Positions 3,057 through 60,695 of a stretch of DNA of 64,000 bases are shown in pieces. The stretch's first letter is position 1, and every line of letters begins with the position of its first letter. The notes under the pieces are model-generated. The model was given only the letters and a program-made list of their open reading frames with translations, did not search any database and was not told where the DNA came from. Origin of the DNA: Pseudoflavonifractor phocaeensis. Lineage in GTDB: Bacteria > Bacillota > Clostridia > Oscillospirales > Oscillospiraceae. The position numbers and the translations under genes are program-made. Location: NCBI RefSeq assembly GCF_021531815.1, contig NZ_JADYUM010000012.1, positions 1-64,000 of the forward strand, read 5' to 3'.

Positions 3057-3743
3057 TAAATTTTCGTTTATAGGGTTAGGAGATTTCGCCGCTGCGGTGG
3101 CGAGTGACTTTTGGAGCCATCCAAAAGTAACCAAAAGATGGCCGGGGGACGGCCAGGCCGGCCTCGGGCTGCGCCCTCCGCCGCCAAGGGCCTTACCCCC
3201 GGACCCCACTACGGGAGCCCAGCGGCCCTGCGTTGAACCCAAGCCGCAAAATTTGATTTGCCCCACACCGCCTTTTTGCTTCGCAAAATTCGGAGGTTTT
3301 GCGGGGGATCAGCAATACAGCCCGCCTCGACACGGGGAAAACCTGTTCTTGATGCGTCTTACTCCTGTGGCCCGCCGGGGCCGCCCGGTGGGACGTGCCA
3401 CTGAATTAAGTTTTGCACAACGGGGCGGGGCAGCGCGGCCAAGAATCACGCCGCACAATTCGGAAACTCAGGTGCCGATATTCAGCGGTTGCCTGTATTC
3501 AAATTCACTCCGCTCAGGGCCGAAGGCCCGGAAAGAGGGGCAGCAAAACCAGGAAATGAGCGCCGGACGCAAGGAAGGCTTTTTTGTAGGACGCCCCTTG
3601 GGGGCCGGGGCCGAAGCCCCGGAGATTTTTTGGGTACTTTTGTATCTCTACAAAAGTACCTCGCCCGAGGGCGAAACATCCCTATCTCCCGTCCCGCCCG
3701 CAGGCGAAATTAAAAATCCATTTCACCGATAAACGAAAATTTA
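3057..3743. mobile_element. MITE-like repeat element, copy 1 (long form)
   Basis: A 687-bp non-coding element between purO and purH. Perfect terminal inverted repeats: TAAATTTTCGTTTAT at 3057-3071 and its complement ending at 3743. It holds two strong hairpins: ACTTTTGGA/TCCAAAAGT with a 4-nt loop near 3108-3131, and TACTTTTGTA/TACAAAAGTA near 3638-3661. Outer TA dinucleotides suggest TA-target insertion. The terminal TAA on the minus strand is the stop codon of purO. A 211-codon open frame (3097-3732) crosses it, but it tracks the repeat rather than a protein family. Copy 4 is the same long form in the opposite orientation. Confidence 0.8.
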
Positions 3744-4448
3744 TCCGTGTTTGTTGATGATAACGGTATCCCGTTCTCCAGTGGACAGATCCATGTATTG
3801 GACGAACAGGGATACCTTGTTGTCCTCGTTCAGGCTGGCCCACAGTGCATTGGCCAGCGTCTTGGCGTCAGGCGCGGTGATGGCCACCTTCCGGGGCTCT
3901 CCCTCGAAGGAGGGCAGGGGGTCCCGGTTCTCCTGATAGGTGTGGATAAAGCGGCCTTCGCCGGCCTTGGGATGGTCGTAGCCGAAGAAGTACCGGCAGC
4001 AGCAGGAGGGGTCGCCGTCGTCGGACTTCAGGATGGACAGGGCGAAGCTGCCGTCCTTGTGGAGCAGGCCGGAGATCCGGGGGGTGTAGTTGGGGCCGTC
4101 GGGCTCAAACTCCCGGGTGCGGAGAGGCTGGGCGAAGACCTGACCCGCCAGCAGGCCGTCCCGGATGGTGTCCGTCTGGTCCCCGTTGGTGACCACGGTG
4201 TCGTCCCCCACGATGCGGACGGGGTGGTAAATAATGAGGGAGGGGTCGGTCATCTTGCTCTCGTCGTAGGCTTTGGTGCGGATACCGTCCCCGGTAGTCT
4301 CAAAGACCCGGTTGCGGCTGTTTTCGCTGCGGCCCATGATGAAATAGGCGATGACCGCCTTTTTGTCATCAGCGGAACGGCCCAGAACAATGCCCCGGCC
4401 GGGATAGGGGTGGTCGCGCAGCAGCTGGTTCAGATCGAGTGTTTTCAT
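3741..4448 (-). CDS. purO: IMP cyclohydrolase, PurO type
   Basis: The 235-residue product belongs to the PurO family first known from archaea (residues such as HPYPGRGIVLG and AYFIMGRSENSRNRVF at the N-terminus). It closes the ring of FAICAR to give IMP, the last step of the pathway, and is unrelated to the PurH cyclohydrolase domain. It pairs with the stand-alone AICAR formyltransferase downstream. Start ATG 4448 follows SD GAGGAGG by 7 nt. It is preceded by a ZTP riboswitch with a terminator, so the two last steps appear to be controlled separately from the upstream pur genes. Its TAA stop is the terminal TAA of repeat copy 1. Confidence 0.93.
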   Translation of the reverse strand: MKTLDLNQLLRDHPYPGRGIVLGRSADDKKAVIAYFIMGRSENSRNRVFETTGDGIRTKAYDESKMTDPSLIIYHPVRIVGDDTVVTNGDQTDTIRDGLLAGQVFAQPLRTREFEPDGPNYTPRISGLLHKDGSFALSILKSDDGDPSCCCRYFFGYDHPKAGEGRFIHTYQENRDPLPSFEGEPRKVAITAPDAKTLANALWASLNEDNKVSLFVQYMDLSTGERDTVIINKHG

Positions 4449-14637: not shown

Positions 14638-15104
14638 TAAATTTTGGTTTATCGCCCTAAGGCACCTAAAACCTATGTTATGTAGGGCAAGGGCTTTGCC
14701 CTTGCCTTTTCTGGGTAGACAAAATACTGGGAAAAATTTGCGCACTGGAACACTTCGCTTGCGGGCGGGACGGGAGATGGGATGTTTCGCCCCCCGGGCG
14801 AGGTGCTTTTGTAGAGATACAAAAGTACCCCAAAAATCTCCGGGGCCCCGGCCCCCCAGGGGCGTCCTACAAAAAGGTCTGCCTCGCATCCGGCGCCCAT
14901 CCCCTGGTTTTGCTGCCCCGCCTTCCGGGCCTTCGGCCCTGGGTCGGGGAAACTTGGATTGGGACAGCCGCTGAATCCTGCGCCTGGGTTTCACAACTGT
15001 GCGGCGTGGTCCTGGACTGCGCTGGCCCGCTCCACAGCACAGCTTGATTCATCGGCAACCACTCATACAGAGCGTATCATTGCTGCCCCATAAACTAAAA
15101 TGGA
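14638..15104. mobile_element. MITE-like repeat element, copy 2 (short form)
   Basis: A 467-bp element between comM and the histidine kinase gene. The left end reads TAAATTTTGGTTTAT (14638-14652); the right end ATAAACTAAAATGGA is a degraded complement. It carries the TACAAAAGTA-type hairpin (14812-14829 region) and the short GGGCAAGGGC/GCCCTTGCC stem near 14683-14706, like copy 3, but lacks the ACTTTTGG module of copies 1 and 4. Only 7 bp separate its right end from the TAG stop of the kinase gene. The rest of the 628-bp gap (14484-14637) shows no gene. Confidence 0.75.
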
Positions 15105-15111
15105 TAAAGGA

Positions 15112-16563
15112 CTAACCCCGTTCGTCCGGTTCTTCACACAGCGGCAGCACAAACGTGATCCGAGTGCCCACATCCACCCGGGACACCACCTCGAACCAAC
15201 CGCCGTGGCGGTCTACGATCCACTTGGCGATGGATAAACCCAGGCCGGTGCCGCCGGTCTTGCGGTCCCGGGACTGGTCGGCGCGGTAAAACCGCTCGAA
15301 AATGTGGGGGATCCCCTCGGGGGGGATGCCCATTCCCTCATCCTGAACGGTGACCCGGGCATAGCCCTGGTTTACTGTCACCCGCAGGTAGACCTTATCC
15401 CCTTGGCTGCTGTATTTCACGCTGTTGTCCATCAGCACCCGCATCAGCTGCTTCATCAGGCCGGGGTCTGCGAACACCGTCACCGGTTCCTCACCCCACC
15501 GGGGCAGGAACAGCCGGTCGGGATGGATCATCTCCTCCTCCCGGAGCACCTCGCCGGCCAGCCGGGTCAGGTCCAGCCGTTCCTTTTTCACCGGCTGGGA
15601 GTCGTTGTCGCCCCGGGCCAAGAAAAGCAGCTGTTCCACCAGCCGTTCCATGGCCGCGGCCTCAGACCGGATGGCATCGATGGACTCCTGAAGGGCTTCC
15701 GGGTCTGACTTGCCCCAGCGGTCCAGCAGGGCGGCGTAGCCCTGGATGACGGCGATGGGGGTGCGCAGCTCGTGGCTGGCGTCGGAGACAAAACGCATCT
15801 GCGCGGTGTACGCCCGGTTCACCCGGTCCAGCATGTCGTTGATGGCCTGGGCCACGCCCCGCAGCTCCTTCTGGGTGGCCAGAAGATCGATGCGGCTGTC
15901 CAGGTGCTTGGCGTTGATCTTATCCAACTCTCCCGCCAGGTTTTCCAGCTCCCGCCGTGACATGTGTGTCATGGAGTTGAGGCGGGAGGCGGTGGCGGCC
16001 AGGTCCTGGATGGGCCGCAGCACCTTGCGGATGGCTCGGTTGTTTCGGAACAGGTTGGTCAGCAGGGACAGCCCCTGGCAGACCAGCAGAGCCATGCCCG
16101 CCCAGTACAAAGTCCGGAAGATCCCGGCCAGCTCCACCCTGACGGCGTAGGGACGCCCGCCGTTTGGCAGCTCCACGGTGTAGTAGCTGCTCAAGTTCCA
16201 GCTGCGCAGGCCGTCTTTGGTCTCATCCCGCAGGGGAAGCCAGGAGAAGGCCGACAGCTCATAGCCCTCCGGCGCCCTGTCCAGGGGAGCGATGGTATAG
16301 TCGCTGGCCTCCATCCAGGGGATGGCGTCGGCGGTGGGCACTCCGCGCTCCGCCACAAGGGCGGCCACATCGGCGCAGCGGTTCTCGGCATAAAAGACCA
16401 GGCCCACCAGCGCCATCAGCACCAGCAGCAGGTCCATGACCAGAAAGATCCCCAGCTGCCGCAGGAAAAAACCGCTGTTCAGCCGGAAGACCAGGGAGGA
16501 GTCCCGGGCCGCGGTGATGGGGTCCGCCGGGGGCGGGTTTCGAAACCGGTTTTTTTTGACCAC
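15112..16563 (-). CDS. Sensor histidine kinase
   Basis: The 483-residue kinase has two membrane segments (about residues 35-57 and 150-170) around a roughly 90-residue external sensor, a HAMP-like linker, the phospho-acceptor His in SDASHELRTPIAVIQGY, and ATPase boxes (MDNSVKYSS, DEGMGIP, GGTGLGLSIAKWIVDRHGG). It would phosphorylate the response regulator encoded upstream in the same operon. The start is GTG 16563 after GGAGGGAG. The flavodoxin-like gene lies between kinase and regulator. Its stop is 7 bp from repeat copy 2. Signal unknown. Confidence 0.92.
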   Translation of the reverse strand: MVKKNRFRNPPPADPITAARDSSLVFRLNSGFFLRQLGIFLVMDLLLVLMALVGLVFYAENRCADVAALVAERGVPTADAIPWMEASDYTIAPLDRAPEGYELSAFSWLPLRDETKDGLRSWNLSSYYTVELPNGGRPYAVRVELAGIFRTLYWAGMALLVCQGLSLLTNLFRNNRAIRKVLRPIQDLAATASRLNSMTHMSRRELENLAGELDKINAKHLDSRIDLLATQKELRGVAQAINDMLDRVNRAYTAQMRFVSDASHELRTPIAVIQGYAALLDRWGKSDPEALQESIDAIRSEAAAMERLVEQLLFLARGDNDSQPVKKERLDLTRLAGEVLREEEMIHPDRLFLPRWGEEPVTVFADPGLMKQLMRVLMDNSVKYSSQGDKVYLRVTVNQGYARVTVQDEGMGIPPEGIPHIFERFYRADQSRDRKTGGTGLGLSIAKWIVDRHGGWFEVVSRVDVGTRITFVLPLCEEPDERG

Positions 16564-25977: not shown

Positions 25978-28434
25978 ATGCGGGAAAGACAGGAGCGGGC
26001 CGGGGACCGGACGGGAGGCGCCCCCCGGGGCGCCCACTCCAAACGGGTGATCCTCCGCCGGACGCTGTTCCTGATGGTGGTGTGCGGCGTGCTGTTGTTC
26101 GTGCCGCTGATCTGGAAGCTGTGGGACATCGCCATCGTCCACCACGAGGACTACCAGCAGAAGGCCAGCGACCAGCAGACGCTGGACCTGTCGGTGTCCG
26201 CCAGCCGGGGCAATATCTATGACCGGAACGGAAACGTGCTGGCCATGTCGGCCACGGTGTACGATCTGATCCTCTCCCCCAGGGATCTGGTCCAGGACCG
26301 GGTGCCCCAGAAGAACTACACCGACGAGGAGACCAAGGTGTTCGACGAGGCGGCCTGGAACGCCGCGGTGGAGGCGGAGCAGGACAAACTGATCCGGGAC
26401 CTGATGGAGCTGCTTCCCGGTCTGGACCAGGAGCGGCTGGAGAGCCAGGTCCGGGACACCACCAAGGCCTATAAGGAGATCAAGACCAAGATCGAGGAGG
26501 AGGACGTGGAGGCCATCCGGAACTATATCACGGAGAACAAGACCACCCACTACCTCTATTTGAAGCCGGGCACCCGGCGCTACTACCCCTACTCCAGTCT
26601 GGCGGCCCAGGCCCTGGGCTTTGTCAACGCCGAAGGGGGCGCGGTGGGCATCGAGGCGGCCTACGATGATGTGCTGGAGGGGACCGCCGGACGGGTGGTC
26701 ACCACCAAGACCGCCCGGGGCACCCAGATGTACAACAGCTATTCCGAGTTCATCGACGCCATCGACGGCTACGACCTGACCCTGACCATCGACGCCACCA
26801 TCCAGTCCTACGCGGAAAAGACCCTGGAGGAGGGGATCAAGGAGTTCGACGTCCGGGAGGGGGCCTTCTGCATCGTCATGAACCCCAAAACCGGGGCCGT
26901 CATGGCCATTGCCAGTTCCCCGGATTTTGACCCCAATAACTACTCCACCATCGTGGATGACCTGCTTCTCAAGGAGATGGAGGAGGAGGCCAACTCCCTT
27001 TTCGCCAGCCTGAAGGCCAACAACACCGAGGGGCTGACGGAGACGGAGCTCTTCGAGAAGGCCCAGGCCCAGGCCTACTCCAACGCGGTCAATACCCAGT
27101 GGCGCAGCCGGGCCGTGGACTCCCGGTATGAGCCGGGCTCCACCTTCAAAGCTCTGGTGTTGGCCGCCGCCCTGGAAGAAGGGGTGGTGACGGAGAGCGA
27201 CACCTTCTACTGCCCCGGCTATTATAATGTGTCCGGCTGGCCCAAACCCATCGCCTGTTCTAAAAAAGCGCCGGGCCACGGCAGTCAGACCCTGGCGGAG
27301 GCGGTGCAGAACTCCTGCAACCCCGCCTTCATGATGATCGGCCAACGGCTGGGCATCGACAAGTTCTATGACTACTTCGAGGCCTTCGGACTGAAGGAGA
27401 AGACAGGCATAGACCTGCCCGGCGAGGCCAGCTTGGCCAAGAACATCTGGGACCGGGACGCCATGACCAACGTCAACCTGGCAACCGCTTCCTTCGGCCA
27501 GCGCTTTGAGGTCACCCCGCTCCAGATGATCACTGCCTTTTCCGCCGTCATCAACGGAGGCAACCTGGTCCAGCCCTATGTGGTCCAGTCCGTCAGCACC
27601 AAGGACGGCACTGTGGTGCAGAACACCGAGACCACCGTGGTCCGCCAGGTGGTGAGCCAGGAGACCAGCCAGCGGGCCACCAAGATCCTGGAGAGCGTGG
27701 TGTCTGACGGCACTGGCGGCAACGCCTATGTGGCGGGCTACCGCATCGGCGGCAAGACCGGCTCCTCTGAGGTAGGCCTGGAGCAGGACCACACCCTGGT
27801 GTCCTTCATGGGCTTCGCCCCCGCCGACGACCCGGAGGTCATCGTCCTGCTGGCCTATGACCGGCCCCAGGTGGCGTCTCCCCACAGCAACTATTCCACC
27901 ACCGGCGTCTACATCAGCGGCGGCAACATGGCCGCCAAAAAAGCCGGCCCCCTGATCGCAGAGATCCTGGACTATATGGGGGTGGAGAAGAAGTACACCA
28001 AAGAGGAGTCCGCCGCCGTGGATGTGTCCACCCCCCGGGTCACCGGTAAAACGGTCACTGACGCGGCCAAGGCCCTGGCAGAGAAGAACCTGAAGTACCG
28101 CGTGGTGGGGGAGGGCGACACCGTCACCCACCAGGTCCCGGCGTCCGGCGCCTCGGTCCCCGGCGGCTCCACTGTGGTGCTGTACCTGGGCGGCGCCGTC
28201 CCGGAGGAGACCGGAACGGTGCCCGACGTGGTGGGCCTGGGCTATGAGACGGCCAGGAAAAAGCTGGAGGAGGCAGGGTTCTTTATGCGGGCCTCCGGCG
28301 CGTCCACCTACTACGGCAACTCCACCACCGCGGAGGGGCAGAGTGTCGCCGCCGGCGAGACCCTGGCCACTGGCACCGTCATCGACGTCCAATTCTCCAA
28401 TATGGTGGAGGACGGCCCGGTAAACGCAGGATAA
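25978..28434 (+). CDS. Class B penicillin-binding protein with two PASTA domains (FtsI/SpoVD-like)
   Basis: The 818-residue transpeptidase has a short cytosolic tail, one membrane segment (about 28-46), a PBP dimerisation domain (ASRGNIYDRNGNVLA), a transpeptidase domain with the Ser of YEPGSTFKALV, SCN and KTGSS motifs, and two C-terminal PASTA domains (about 690-815). It makes septal or spore-cortex peptidoglycan crosslinks outside the membrane. Its dcw position favours FtsI; Clostridia often have SpoVD as well. ATG 25978 follows GGGGGA. The TAA stop is the terminal TAA of repeat copy 3; without the element the frame would stay open for 25 more codons to a TGA at 28897. Confidence 0.93.
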   Translation: MRERQERAGDRTGGAPRGAHSKRVILRRTLFLMVVCGVLLFVPLIWKLWDIAIVHHEDYQQKASDQQTLDLSVSASRGNIYDRNGNVLAMSATVYDLILSPRDLVQDRVPQKNYTDEETKVFDEAAWNAAVEAEQDKLIRDLMELLPGLDQERLESQVRDTTKAYKEIKTKIEEEDVEAIRNYITENKTTHYLYLKPGTRRYYPYSSLAAQALGFVNAEGGAVGIEAAYDDVLEGTAGRVVTTKTARGTQMYNSYSEFIDAIDGYDLTLTIDATIQSYAEKTLEEGIKEFDVREGAFCIVMNPKTGAVMAIASSPDFDPNNYSTIVDDLLLKEMEEEANSLFASLKANNTEGLTETELFEKAQAQAYSNAVNTQWRSRAVDSRYEPGSTFKALVLAAALEEGVVTESDTFYCPGYYNVSGWPKPIACSKKAPGHGSQTLAEAVQNSCNPAFMMIGQRLGIDKFYDYFEAFGLKEKTGIDLPGEASLAKNIWDRDAMTNVNLATASFGQRFEVTPLQMITAFSAVINGGNLVQPYVVQSVSTKDGTVVQNTETTVVRQVVSQETSQRATKILESVVSDGTGGNAYVAGYRIGGKTGSSEVGLEQDHTLVSFMGFAPADDPEVIVLLAYDRPQVASPHSNYSTTGVYISGGNMAAKKAGPLIAEILDYMGVEKKYTKEESAAVDVSTPRVTGKTVTDAAKALAEKNLKYRVVGEGDTVTHQVPASGASVPGGSTVVLYLGGAVPEETGTVPDVVGLGYETARKKLEEAGFFMRASGASTYYGNSTTAEGQSVAAGETLATGTVIDVQFSNMVEDGPVNAG

Positions 28435-28823
28435 ATTTTCGTTTATAGGACAGCAGTCTGTGCGCTGTAGGACGAACCGGTGCGGGTTTCCGCTGAATCA
28501 AGCTGCACACAATGGTGCGGATCAGCGCAGTCACGGACCACGCCGCACGATTTGGAATCTCAGGCTCCAGTATTCAGCGGCGATCCGGATTCCGGTTCGC
28601 TCCACCCAGGGCCGAAGGCCCGGAGATTTTTTGGGTACTTTTGTATCTCTACAAAAGTACCTCGCCCGGGGGCGAAACATCCCCATCTCCCGTCCCGCCC
28701 GCAGACGAAGTTTTCAAGTGCGCAGATTTCTCTCAGTATTTCGGATACCTGGAAAGGCAAGGGCAGAGCCCTTGCCTACATAACATAGGTTTTAGGTCCC
28801 ATAGGCTGATAAACGAAAATTTA
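28432..28823. mobile_element. MITE-like repeat element, copy 3 (short form)
   Basis: A 392-bp element between the PBP gene and murE with perfect ends, TAAATTTTCGTTTAT at 28432 and its complement ending 28823. It has the TACTTTTGTA/TACAAAAGTA hairpin near 28637-28660 and the GGGCAAGGGC stem near 28758-28778. It is the reverse orientation of copy 2 relative to the plus strand. Its first three bases are the stop codon of the PBP gene. No credible protein is encoded. Confidence 0.82.
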
Positions 28824-32808: not shown

Positions 32809-33927
32809 ATGAATATCCTCTTTACCTGCGGAGGTACCGCCGGACATGTGAATCCGGCCGTGGCCTTGGCCCGTATCTTCCAGGAGAAGCACCCCGGCTG
32901 CCGGGTGCTCTTTGTGGGAGCCGACGGAGGAATGGAGAACAAACTGGTGCCCAAGGAGGGCTATCAGATCCGTTCCGTGACCATCACCAATTTCCACCGC
33001 TCCTTCGCTCCGGCGGACGTCGTCCACAACCTGGGAACGCTGGTGAATATGCAGAAGTCCAAGAAGCAGGCCAAAGCCATTCTGGACGAGTTCAAGCCCG
33101 ACCTGGTGGTGGGGACGGGGGGATACGCCTCCTTCCCTGTGGTCAACGAGGCCGCCCACCGGGGCATTCCCACCGCCGTCCACGAGTCCAACGCCGTTCC
33201 CGGCCTGACCACCAAGGCCCTGTCCAGGGTGGTGGACCGGGTGATGGTGGGCTTTGAGGAGAGCCGGGCCCACTACGACGACCCCTCCAAGGTGGTGGTC
33301 ACCGGCACCCCGGTCCGGGGCGACTTTTTCAAGTATACTCGGGAGGAGGCCCGGGCAAAGCTGGGGTTCACCGACAACCGGCCCCTGCTGCTGTCCTACT
33401 GGGGGTCTCTGGGGGCGGAAGTCATGAACCAGAAGATGGTAGATTTTCTGGCCAAGGAGTGCTATGAGGGCGCGCCCTACCGCCACATCCACGGGGCGGG
33501 GCGGGATTTCCCCTGGATGCAGGAGGAACTGCTCCGCCGGGGCCTGAAGCTGGGGGACAATGGCATCGAGGTCCGGGAGTATATCTACGATATGCCTCTG
33601 GTCATGGCCGCCGCCGACCTGGTGCTGTGCCGGGCGGGCGCCTCCACCATCTCGGAGCTCACCGCCATCGCCAAGCCAGCCGTGCTGGTGCCCTCCCCCA
33701 ACGTCACCGCCAACCACCAGGAGAAGAACGCCCGGGTGCTGGCTGACCAGGGCGCCGCCGTGCTCCTGCGGGAACAGGACTGTGTGGAAAACACCCTTTA
33801 TGATACCGCGGCCCTTCTGCTCCGGGAGAAGGAACGCCGGGAGGGCATGGTCAAGGCTCTGAAGGCCATGGCCGTTCCCAACGCCGGGGAGAAGATCTAT
33901 GAGACCCTCCTGGCAATTATGAAGTAA
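32809..33927 (+). CDS. murG: Lipid II synthase (UDP-GlcNAc transferase)
   Basis: The 372-residue GT-B enzyme adds GlcNAc to lipid I on the inner membrane face. It begins with the diagnostic LFTCGGTAGHVNPAVAL, has GTGGYASFP, HESNAVPGL, and the donor-site LVLCRAGASTISELTAIAKPAVLVP near residue 270. The ATG follows CGAGGTG. Its TAA stop is the terminal TAA of repeat copy 4; before insertion the stop would have been TAG. Confidence 0.97.
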   Translation: MNILFTCGGTAGHVNPAVALARIFQEKHPGCRVLFVGADGGMENKLVPKEGYQIRSVTITNFHRSFAPADVVHNLGTLVNMQKSKKQAKAILDEFKPDLVVGTGGYASFPVVNEAAHRGIPTAVHESNAVPGLTTKALSRVVDRVMVGFEESRAHYDDPSKVVVTGTPVRGDFFKYTREEARAKLGFTDNRPLLLSYWGSLGAEVMNQKMVDFLAKECYEGAPYRHIHGAGRDFPWMQEELLRRGLKLGDNGIEVREYIYDMPLVMAAADLVLCRAGASTISELTAIAKPAVLVPSPNVTANHQEKNARVLADQGAAVLLREQDCVENTLYDTAALLLREKERREGMVKALKAMAVPNAGEKIYETLLAIMK

Positions 33928-34724
33928 ATTTTCTTTTAGCGGCCCATGGGCCCGGAAGCCTGTGTAATGTAGGGCAAGGGCTCTGCCCTTGCCTTTGGTG
34001 GCCGTTATTCTGCGTTCAGGTAGGGCGTCCCCTTAGGGCCGCCGCGGTAAGGAACCACGGACACTGGAGCATCGCCTGCGGGCGGTACGGGGGATTAGGG
34101 AAGTTTCGCCCTCGGGCGAGATACTTTTGTAGAGATACAAAAGTACCCCAAAAGATCTCCGGGGCTTCGACCCCGGCCCCCGAGGAGAGTTCGATTGGGA
34201 AAGTGTTCCTTGCGTCCGGCGCGCAAAATTCGGTTCTGTTGCCTCTTTTTCCGGGCCTTCGGCCCTGAGTGAAACGAATTTGGATAAGAACAGCCACCGG
34301 ATGTCAGCGCCTGGGGCTCCGAATTGTGCGGCGTGGTTCCTGACTGTGCTGCCCCGCCCCGCTGTGCAAAACTAGATTCAGTGGCACGTCCCACCGGGCG
34401 GCCCCGGCGGGCCACGGAAATAAGAAGCATCAAGAACAGGTTTTGCCCGTACCGAGGCGGGCTGAATTGTTGATCCCCCGTAAAACCTCCGAATTTTGCG
34501 AAGCAAAAGGCGGTGTGAGTCAATTCAAATTTTGCGGCTTGGGTTTCGCGCAGGGCCGCTGGGCTCCCGTAGTGGGGTCCGGGGGTAAGGCCGTTGGCGG
34601 CGGAGGGCGCAGCCCGAGGCCGGCCTGGCCGTCCCCCGGCCATCTTTTGGTGACTTTTGGATGGCTCCAAAAGTCACTCGCCGCCGCAGCGGCGAAATCT
34701 CCCAACCCTATAAACTAAAATTTA
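33925..34724. mobile_element. MITE-like repeat element, copy 4 (long form)
   Basis: An 800-bp element between murG and murA. The ends are TAAATTTTCTTTTAG (33925) and ATAAACTAAAATTTA (ending 34724), diverged but still complementary. It carries the TACTTTTGTA/TACAAAAGTA hairpin near 34120-34146, the GGGCAAGGGC stem near 33971-33993 and the ACTTTTGGA/TCCAAAAGT hairpin near 34651-34676. It is copy 1 in inverted orientation, with two regions more. A minus-strand open frame (34095-34670) matches parts of the frame in copy 1, as expected from DNA similarity. The remaining gap to murA (34725-34823) has no gene. Confidence 0.8.
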
Positions 34725-59460: not shown

Positions 59461-60465
59461 ATGACGCTGAGAGAACAGTTCCAGCAGCGGGAGGAGGCCA
59501 TGCTGTCTCCTTACGCCTGCCGCTCGGCCCAGACCCGGGGACGCCAGCGGCCGGAGGAGGAGTGCGCGGTCCGGACGCCCTTTCAGCGGGATACGGACCG
59601 GATCGTCTACTCCAAGGCGTTTCGGCGCCTGAAACACAAGACCCAGGTGTTTCTTCAGCCCGAGGGGGACCACTACCGCACCCGGATGACCCACACCCTG
59701 GAGGTCAGCCGCATCGCCCGGACCATCGCCCGGGCCCTGTCGCTGAACGAGGACCTGACGGAGGCCATCGCCCTGGGCCATGACCTGGGCCACACCCCCT
59801 TTGGCCACGCCGGAGAGCGGGCGCTGAACGACCTGATGCCCGGAGGCTTTGCCCACTACCAGCAGTCGGTGCGGGTGGTGGAGCGGCTGGAGAAAAACGG
59901 CGAGGGGCTGAACCTGACCTGGGAGGTGCGCAACGGTATCCGGTGCCACACCAAGGGAGAGAACGCCGCCACGCTGGAGGGACAGATCGTCCGGCTGGCC
60001 GACCATATCGCCTATATCAACCACGACATTGAGGACGCCCTGCGAGGCGGGATCATCTTTCCCATGGACATCCCTCTGGAGGTCGCCAATGTGCTGGGCT
60101 TTACCCACAAGGCCCGGATCGACGCCCTGGTCCGGGACGCCATCGAAGCCAGCCAGGGACAGCCAGAGATCCGGCAGTCCCCCGGTGTGCGGGAGGCCAT
60201 GTTGGCCTTGAAGGACTTTATGTTCGACAGCGTGTATACCAATCCCTTGGCCAAGGGGGAGGAAGGCAAGGCCCAGGACATGCTGCGGATGCTCTTTGAA
60301 TACTATCAGAAGGACCCCGACCAGCTGCCTGATGACTTTCAGGCCATCCGTGCCGAGGAGGGCGTGGACCGGGCGGTGTGCGATTACATCGCCGGCATGA
60401 CCGACCCCTTTGCTGTGGAGCGGTTCAAGGAACTGTTTATCCCCATGGGCTGGACGGTGAAATAG
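59461..60465 (+). CDS. dgt: Deoxyguanosinetriphosphate triphosphohydrolase-like protein
   Basis: The 334-residue HD-domain protein has the metal motif H...HD...D (TRMTHTLEVSRIARTIA; ALGHDLGHTPFGHAGE; RLADHIAYINHDIED). Dgt hydrolyses dGTP to deoxyguanosine and triphosphate. In Firmicutes it is the usual first gene before dnaG and rpoD, as here. The last 73 bp, including the stop, are repeated at 60623-60695. Confidence 0.93.
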   Translation: MTLREQFQQREEAMLSPYACRSAQTRGRQRPEEECAVRTPFQRDTDRIVYSKAFRRLKHKTQVFLQPEGDHYRTRMTHTLEVSRIARTIARALSLNEDLTEAIALGHDLGHTPFGHAGERALNDLMPGGFAHYQQSVRVVERLEKNGEGLNLTWEVRNGIRCHTKGENAATLEGQIVRLADHIAYINHDIEDALRGGIIFPMDIPLEVANVLGFTHKARIDALVRDAIEASQGQPEIRQSPGVREAMLALKDFMFDSVYTNPLAKGEEGKAQDMLRMLFEYYQKDPDQLPDDFQAIRAEEGVDRAVCDYIAGMTDPFAVERFKELFIPMGWTVK

Positions 60466-60466
60466 G
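60394..60466 (+). repeat. Direct repeat A: 3' end of dgt
   Basis: 73 bp from GGCATGACCGAC to AATAGG; 70 of 73 positions equal the copy at 60623. The difference in coding sense is Lys versus Gln at one codon (FKELF/FQELF); the other two are synonymous. Confidence 0.92.
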
Positions 60467-60622
60467 GCCGGCGATGGGGCCCCATCGCAGATGGGGCGGC
60501 GCGGTAAGCGCCGTAAATTCGAAGGGCCGCAGGCCCGGAGAATTTCCGCAGGGGCGGATTCACTCCGCCCCGAGGATTTGAAAATCAAAAGGGCTCCCGC
60601 GGGGCTGTGCCCCGTGGGAAAG
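60467..60622. other. GC-rich insert between the dgt-end repeats
   Basis: 156 bp, rich in short hairpins (GATGGGGCCCCATC, GGGCCGCAGGCCC, GGGGCTGTGCCCC) and with no gene. It is bounded by the two 73-bp direct repeats and resembles neither flank, as expected for an inserted element or its remains. The rest up to 60776 (60696-60776) holds only the dnaG upstream region. Confidence 0.6.
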
Positions 60623-60695
60623 GGCATGACCGACCCCTTTGCTGTGGAGCGGTTCCAGGAGCTGTTTATCCCCATGGGTTGGACGGTGAAATAGG
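60623..60695 (+). repeat. Direct repeat B: displaced copy of the dgt 3' end
   Basis: A 73-bp copy of the dgt end with its TAG stop, but cut off from the gene. After it begins unrelated sequence (TTTTCGGCACG) leading to dnaG. Confidence 0.92.

Follow-up and report, generated by a model that had tools for sequence, protein, structure and literature searches.

Inverted-repeat elements lie flush with stop codons across the genomes of Pseudoflavonifractor phocaeensis and a sister species

A family of inverted-repeat elements in Pseudoflavonifractor phocaeensis supplies stop codons to many of the genes that it adjoins, and this flush position at stop codons is real and genome-wide. The window, by which we mean the whole 64,000-nucleotide stretch of DNA that was analysed, carries four copies. 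An initial annotation reported that the terminal TAA of copies 1, 3 and 4 is exactly the stop codon of the neighbouring gene, whereas copy 2 ends a few bases beyond a stop, and our coordinates agree with it at all four places:

3057-3743, no strand assigned: copy 1, 687 bp, whose right end supplies the stop codon (3743-3741) of a minus-strand IMP cyclohydrolase (purO-like) gene
14638-15104, no strand assigned: copy 2, 467 bp, with a degenerate right end, 7 bp past the stop codon of a histidine kinase gene
28432-28823, no strand assigned: copy 3, 392 bp, whose left end gives a penicillin-binding protein (PBP) gene its stop codon (28432-28434)
33925-34724, no strand assigned: copy 4, 800 bp, whose left end gives murG its stop codon (33925-33927)
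28432-28449, plus strand: terminal inverted repeat of copy 3, TAAATTTTCGTTTATAGG, with the stop codon as bases 1-3
28806-28823, minus strand: the matching inverted repeat at the opposite terminus of copy 3
3741-4448, minus strand: IMP cyclohydrolase-like gene (PF07826), ended by copy 1
15112-16563, minus strand: histidine kinase gene (HisKA, HATPase_c), adjoining copy 2
25978-28434, plus strand: PBP gene with PASTA domains, ended by copy 3
32809-33927, plus strand: murG (glycosyltransferase 28 domains), ended by copy 4

Removing copies in silico also gives what had been described: TAG in murG without copy 4 and, without copy 3, a PBP frame that stays open for 25 codons, to a TGA 5 nt before murE. 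Two other features of the window are a ZMP/ZTP riboswitch (RF01750; 4496-4575, minus strand) directly upstream of the IMP cyclohydrolase gene ended by copy 1 and, at 60394-60695, two 73-nt copies of a sequence that are 96% alike and 229 nt apart.

The ends of the repeat are inverted copies of TAAATTTTnGTTTATnGG; in the window, copy 2 has an imperfect right end and copy 4 an imperfect left end. TAAATTTTnGTTTAT is the motif for matching ends of the family. For the window's genome (2.67 Mb, 45 contigs), a pattern search and a DNA similarity search yielded the element list, with entries curated by hand from the pattern matches. Terminal inverted repeats are present, the pattern search of this genome returning 48 matches with at most 2 mismatches versus 0 for the reversed pattern. 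Both ends are paired in 27 of 44 entries, and in 30 entries of the corresponding list for the sister genome (G040), with many of the others at contig ends. For unpaired ends in the window's genome, partner ends with at most 2 mismatches occur only 449-673 bp away, and none was found at 1-3 kb. Complete copies measure 392-800 bp in the window's genome and 145-794 bp in the sister, where 23 of the 30 complete copies fall between 196 and 307 bp and constitute a short family. Median pairwise likeness is 96% within that short family and 81% among copies in the window's genome. The termini read TA on both sides. Stop-free stretches inside copies reach 228 codons, coding status aside, and the two copies that we tried folded strongly (z -7.3 and -5.4). 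PF13358, the only family tried in looking for an IS630-type transposase, matched in neither genome, while a control was found in 3 of 14 genomes.

The initial annotation had suggested tabulating genomic copies against the nearest stop codon, and doing so carries the pattern well past the window. Genes were called with a simple codon-usage script, and some of its calls are weak or wrong (doubtful ones include a 93-bp gene preceding L166 814 and the right-hand neighbour of L156 2244). The 44 catalogued entries of the window's genome have 71 ends, of which 36 face the 3' end of a gene, 34 face a 5' end and 1 faces no gene. Bases 1-3 of the repeat form the stop codon at 20 of the 36 3'-facing ends (19 TAA and one TGA from a mutated end), and two further genes end at a TAG made of bases 8-10, inside the terminal repeat. 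The nearest called start codon to the 34 5'-facing ends lies 22 nt away. True copy number in this genome is probably higher than listed, because many contigs end in a repeat.

The sister list comprises 47 entries with 77 ends, six spurious single entries having been left out. Thirty-six of these ends face the 3' end of a gene, 18 of them exactly at the stop, and the other 41 face a 5' end, with one called start (L170) 3 nt away. One of the 36, the right end at L156, is probably a gene-calling error, since the neighbour at the orthologous position is murE, encoded on the opposite strand. The counts exclude L090, where a decayed end seemingly forms a stop. Stops are supplied in both orientations of the element, as had been noted for the window: among the 18 flush ends in the sister, the two end types of the short family account for 7 and 7, and the other 4 are other end types.

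Occupied sites are common to the two species. At least 14 lie beside orthologous genes in both, a lower bound and not a sharing rate, as common sites were seen mostly in stretches fetched for elements. Interiors were compared in 8 of the 14 site pairs, and six pairs have no detectable likeness, one shares 26 bp and one shares 111 of 563 bp. The content at common sites is probably younger than the site itself, because the short copies of the sister are more alike (96%) than flanking DNA is between the species (72-93%). At L158 6800-6835, the stop is still made by the remnant of an old end (TAAATTTTAG), with the start of a newer element 23 nt downstream, a possible intermediate of element replacement; this was the only clear case in a search for extra ends inside or beside complete elements. 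Stop codons may, as a tentative proposal, serve as long-lived docking sites at which repeat positions outlast speciation and interiors are swapped for unrelated modules by a process that spares the terminal repeats and the stop. On a larger scale, gene order at L070 11311-14134 compared with L158 726-13108 fits an inversion of ~10 kb between inverted copies, and downstream synteny is lost in relatives at L084, a non-stop site.

How the elements came to lie at stops is constrained by their junctions. The initial annotation proposed that a TA-specific insertion turns a TA-containing stop into TAA at no cost. If a TA-duplicating element had entered TAA or TAG, its removal would have to return one of these stops. 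When we rejoined the flanks of flush elements in silico, the result was TAC 10 times, TAT 3 times and TAG once in the window's genome (n=14), and TAC 9 times, TAT 6 times and TAG once in the sister (n=16). The expectation that removal gives back a stop therefore fails in all but one of 14 and one of 16 cases. In 28 of the 30 flush elements a pyrimidine follows the far-side TA; the exception in the window's genome is murG, and at the same site in the sister a T follows the mutated far end.

On the near side, a purine precedes the stop at 19 of 20 flush ends in the window's genome and at 18 of 18 in the sister (37 of 38 in total), compared with 148 of 231 and 79 of 126 among last codons in the background. 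Ends of other elements mostly adjoin a purine too (30 of 37 and 42 of 43). The junction resembles a purine-TA-pyrimidine target, seen from the far side, to which a stop has been joined at the near side. Three sites that are empty in one species permit a comparison of the gap with and without an element. One gap is 44 nt shorter with the element (85 versus 41), whereas the other two are not shorter (25 versus 24 and 28 versus 38 nt), so spacer loss at these two sites was slight or nil. The far-side flanks of flush elements, with medians of ~38 and ~37 nt, are shorter than element-free codirectional gaps of at least 20 nt (medians 88.5 and 90) but not shorter than all element-free codirectional gaps pooled (medians 37.5 and 29).

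These junctions separate the parts of the original proposal. The excess at stops, the occurrence in both orientations and the low cost to the protein stand; insertion of a TA-duplicating element into TAA or TAG with regeneration of TAA is mostly contradicted, because it predicts A or G after TA and mostly C or T is found. Such plain TA insertion is consistent with stops at or near the same codon in relatives, with the two genes that do rejoin to TAG (murG and the L161 gene of the sister) and with the two empty sister sites that show no gap loss. The 28 of 30 flush elements that rejoin to TAC or TAT, and flanks favouring a purine-TA-pyrimidine sequence that stops do not fit, make it an unlikely explanation overall.

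We give an equally low probability to an element that inserts directly at the native stop or replaces it, so that the third base of the stop is lost or replaced and the far flank starts right after the native stop. Two loci read as this predicts. At L062, the empty sister site reads CAATAAGCC and the occupied copy CAA/TAA.../GCGG; at L066, one relative reads CTGTAACCAC versus CTG/TAA...TTA/CCAC. These are the only two alignable examples, however, and they lie in diverged intergenic DNA; moreover, no TA transposon is known to behave in this way regularly. Site-specific recombinase and rolling-circle models, considered by reasoning alone, were dropped because both end types sit equally often at stops.

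A further question is how far the pattern exceeds chance. Stop codons make up 9.1% (window's genome) and 8.0% (sister) of the TA sites into which an element could insert without breaking a gene. Entries lie at stops in 20 of 44 cases in the window's genome (p ~5e-10, computed with 45 as the denominator) and in 18 of 47 cases in the sister (p ~8e-9). When complete elements are compared with TA sites in the same gap, 14 of 24 are flush in the window's genome versus 6.4 or 7.7 expected (p 1e-4 or 0.001), and 16 of 32 in the sister versus 9.9 or 12.9 expected (p 0.004 or 0.08). The excess over other TA sites that had been predicted is present genome-wide; relative to same-gap TA sites it is clear, at about two-fold, in the window's genome and marginal in the sister. 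Part of it is the scarcity of other TA sites in short codirectional gaps. Scarcity could in principle be the whole explanation, the stop often being the sole harmless TA site of a short gap, and local TA sites do predict 6.4-7.7 of 24 and 9.9-12.9 of 32 flush elements, the stricter null giving p 0.08 in the sister. The observed 14 and 16, the position of the window's genome above both nulls and a far-side base showing that stop TAs are no ordinary targets make scarcity alone improbable.

Elements that are not flush tend to lie behind a terminator. Using our own rule for intrinsic terminators, we find one in 13 of 16 non-flush stop-facing ends with spacers of 31-130 nt and in 6 of 6 with spacers above 130 nt (one being a probable gene-calling error), versus 0 of 10 with spacers of at most 30 nt (one with a spacer of 0 by the script and one the L158 remnant). 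Element-free gaps of 31-130 nt have a terminator in 8 of 35 codirectional and 15 of 20 convergent cases. The 16 ends divide into 7 convergent (6 with a terminator), 5 codirectional (4) and 4 without a known far side (3). The far end is known for 30 flush elements; at 28 of them it faces a gene start, which places the element between codirectional genes, and at the remaining 2 it faces a 3' end, one of them a probable gene-calling error. Selection for function, with the repeat kept right behind genes as a 3' processing or termination module, would accommodate the strong folding and the positions common to both species. It is slightly less probable still than scarcity, as six of the eight compared common sites have no detectable common interior and the 28 codirectional placements are ones in which a terminator could cut an operon.

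The proteins appear to keep their native ends. We compared C-termini with element-free relatives for five of the 20 flush genes, those with loci at hand. Counted by locus in these relatives, murG has its stop at the same residue in 42 of 76 (69 of 76 at most 2 residues off), the L091 gene in 9 of 16 (15 of 16), the L066 gene in 16 of 16 (16 of 16) and the L072 gene in 7 of 19 (19 of 19). PBP is the weakest of the five, with 7 of 28 at the same residue, 18 of 28 at most 2 residues off and 10 of 28 outside that range. In the three closest element-free genomes that read well, the PBP end is identical (G042, G008) or three residues longer in frame, ending nearby (G064). Truncation is unlikely in the tested genes, because in most element-free relatives the protein ends no more than two residues away, and the comparison bears out, for these five, the low protein cost that the initial annotation had anticipated. 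It is likewise unlikely that the ancestral PBP gene ran through the 25 codons left open when copy 3 is removed, since PBP in most element-free relatives ends at or near its present position. The idea that elements entered tyrosine codons near the gene end and removed the C-terminus, for which the mostly TAC or TAT rejoined codons could be cited, is contradicted by the ends in all five genes and is scarcely credible. Downstream of PBP (L175-L204), several element-free relatives seem by eye to carry other repeat-like sequences that start no more than a few bases from the stop.

The explanation that we favour, with middling confidence in it as a whole, is that the repeat is a lineage-specific MITE-like family with TA-ended inverted repeats and a mosaic, hairpin-rich interior, whose copies persist mainly where they are harmless: flush with a native stop, its TAA replaced in place, or behind the gene's own terminator. 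It builds on direct observations of the anatomy, the flush positions, the native ends in five genes, the two-species sites and the unrelated interiors at most compared sites. Copies would insert into the gap just past a stop, at purine-TA-pyrimidine sites, and the bases between the TAA of the stop and the TAA of the element, being free of constraint, would then be lost, often via a shared (purine)TAA. The flush state would be stable, since any deletion beyond it would damage the gene. When a new element inserts into an old one, the same end-to-end deletion may operate, which would leave site and stop in place and change the content. Against this reading stand the two of three empty sites without a shorter gap, far flanks no shorter than the pooled codirectional gaps, the lack of a match to PF13358, the one transposase family tried, and the existence of ends 1-30 nt from a stop without a terminator. 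The 16 non-flush ends also include 7 in convergent gaps, which often hold a terminator in any case.

The family is narrowly distributed. In a survey of 64 genomes of the genus, 9 have a match, and more than one match occurs only in the window's genome and G040 (72 matches). Across 300 genomes drawn from the family, G040 not among them, 24 have a match and none has more than 2 apart from the window's genome. Interior pieces of copy 3 match 30 of the 64 genus genomes, the window's genome and G040 among them; the other genus genomes with interior pieces are not rich in repeat ends.

Among open-licence papers, we found none on Pseudoflavonifractor repeats or on insertion into stop codons. The closest precedent for stop supply is the BOX element of Streptococcus pneumoniae, which, according to the consulted parts of its description, supplies the stop codon of 36 genes without strong evidence of truncation (PMC3049150). 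As described in those parts, BOX resembles the present repeat in being modular, variable in length and hairpin-forming, in having terminal repeats and in supplying stops without evident truncation (here in five genes) (PMC3049150). The likeness to BOX, with its boxA, boxB and boxC modules, is one of description. An exact-junction statistic and sister-species sites with exchanged interiors appear here and not in the consulted parts of that paper (PMC3049150).

Other repeats offer partial parallels, drawn from excerpts of the cited papers. RUP of S. pneumoniae is, like our family, a short inverted-repeat element inserted at sites with TA (PMC2229807); unlike it, RUP is ~107 bp long and linked to the IS630-Spn1 transposase, whereas PF13358 has no match in either genome here. 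Enterobacterial ERIC and RU and the Coxiella QMITE2 are similarly MITE-like repeats able to sit at the 3' ends of genes, but in the excerpted cases they extend or fuse the protein, whereas here the first codon of the repeat stops the frame (PMC2759123, PMC5896051). More generally, the cases in these excerpts have repeats fusing with, extending or cutting genes (PMC2229807, PMC2759123, PMC5896051, PMC6382973). What stands out as unusual here is that interiors turn over at sites that stay put.

These results carry a caution, in that removing a repeat in silico need not return the ancestral gene end. They also provide a counted, two-species case in which a mobile-looking repeat is a coding part, the stop, of many genes at no visible cost. 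The two genomes offer a system for asking how repeats persist in compact genomes and how their content changes while their sites stay.
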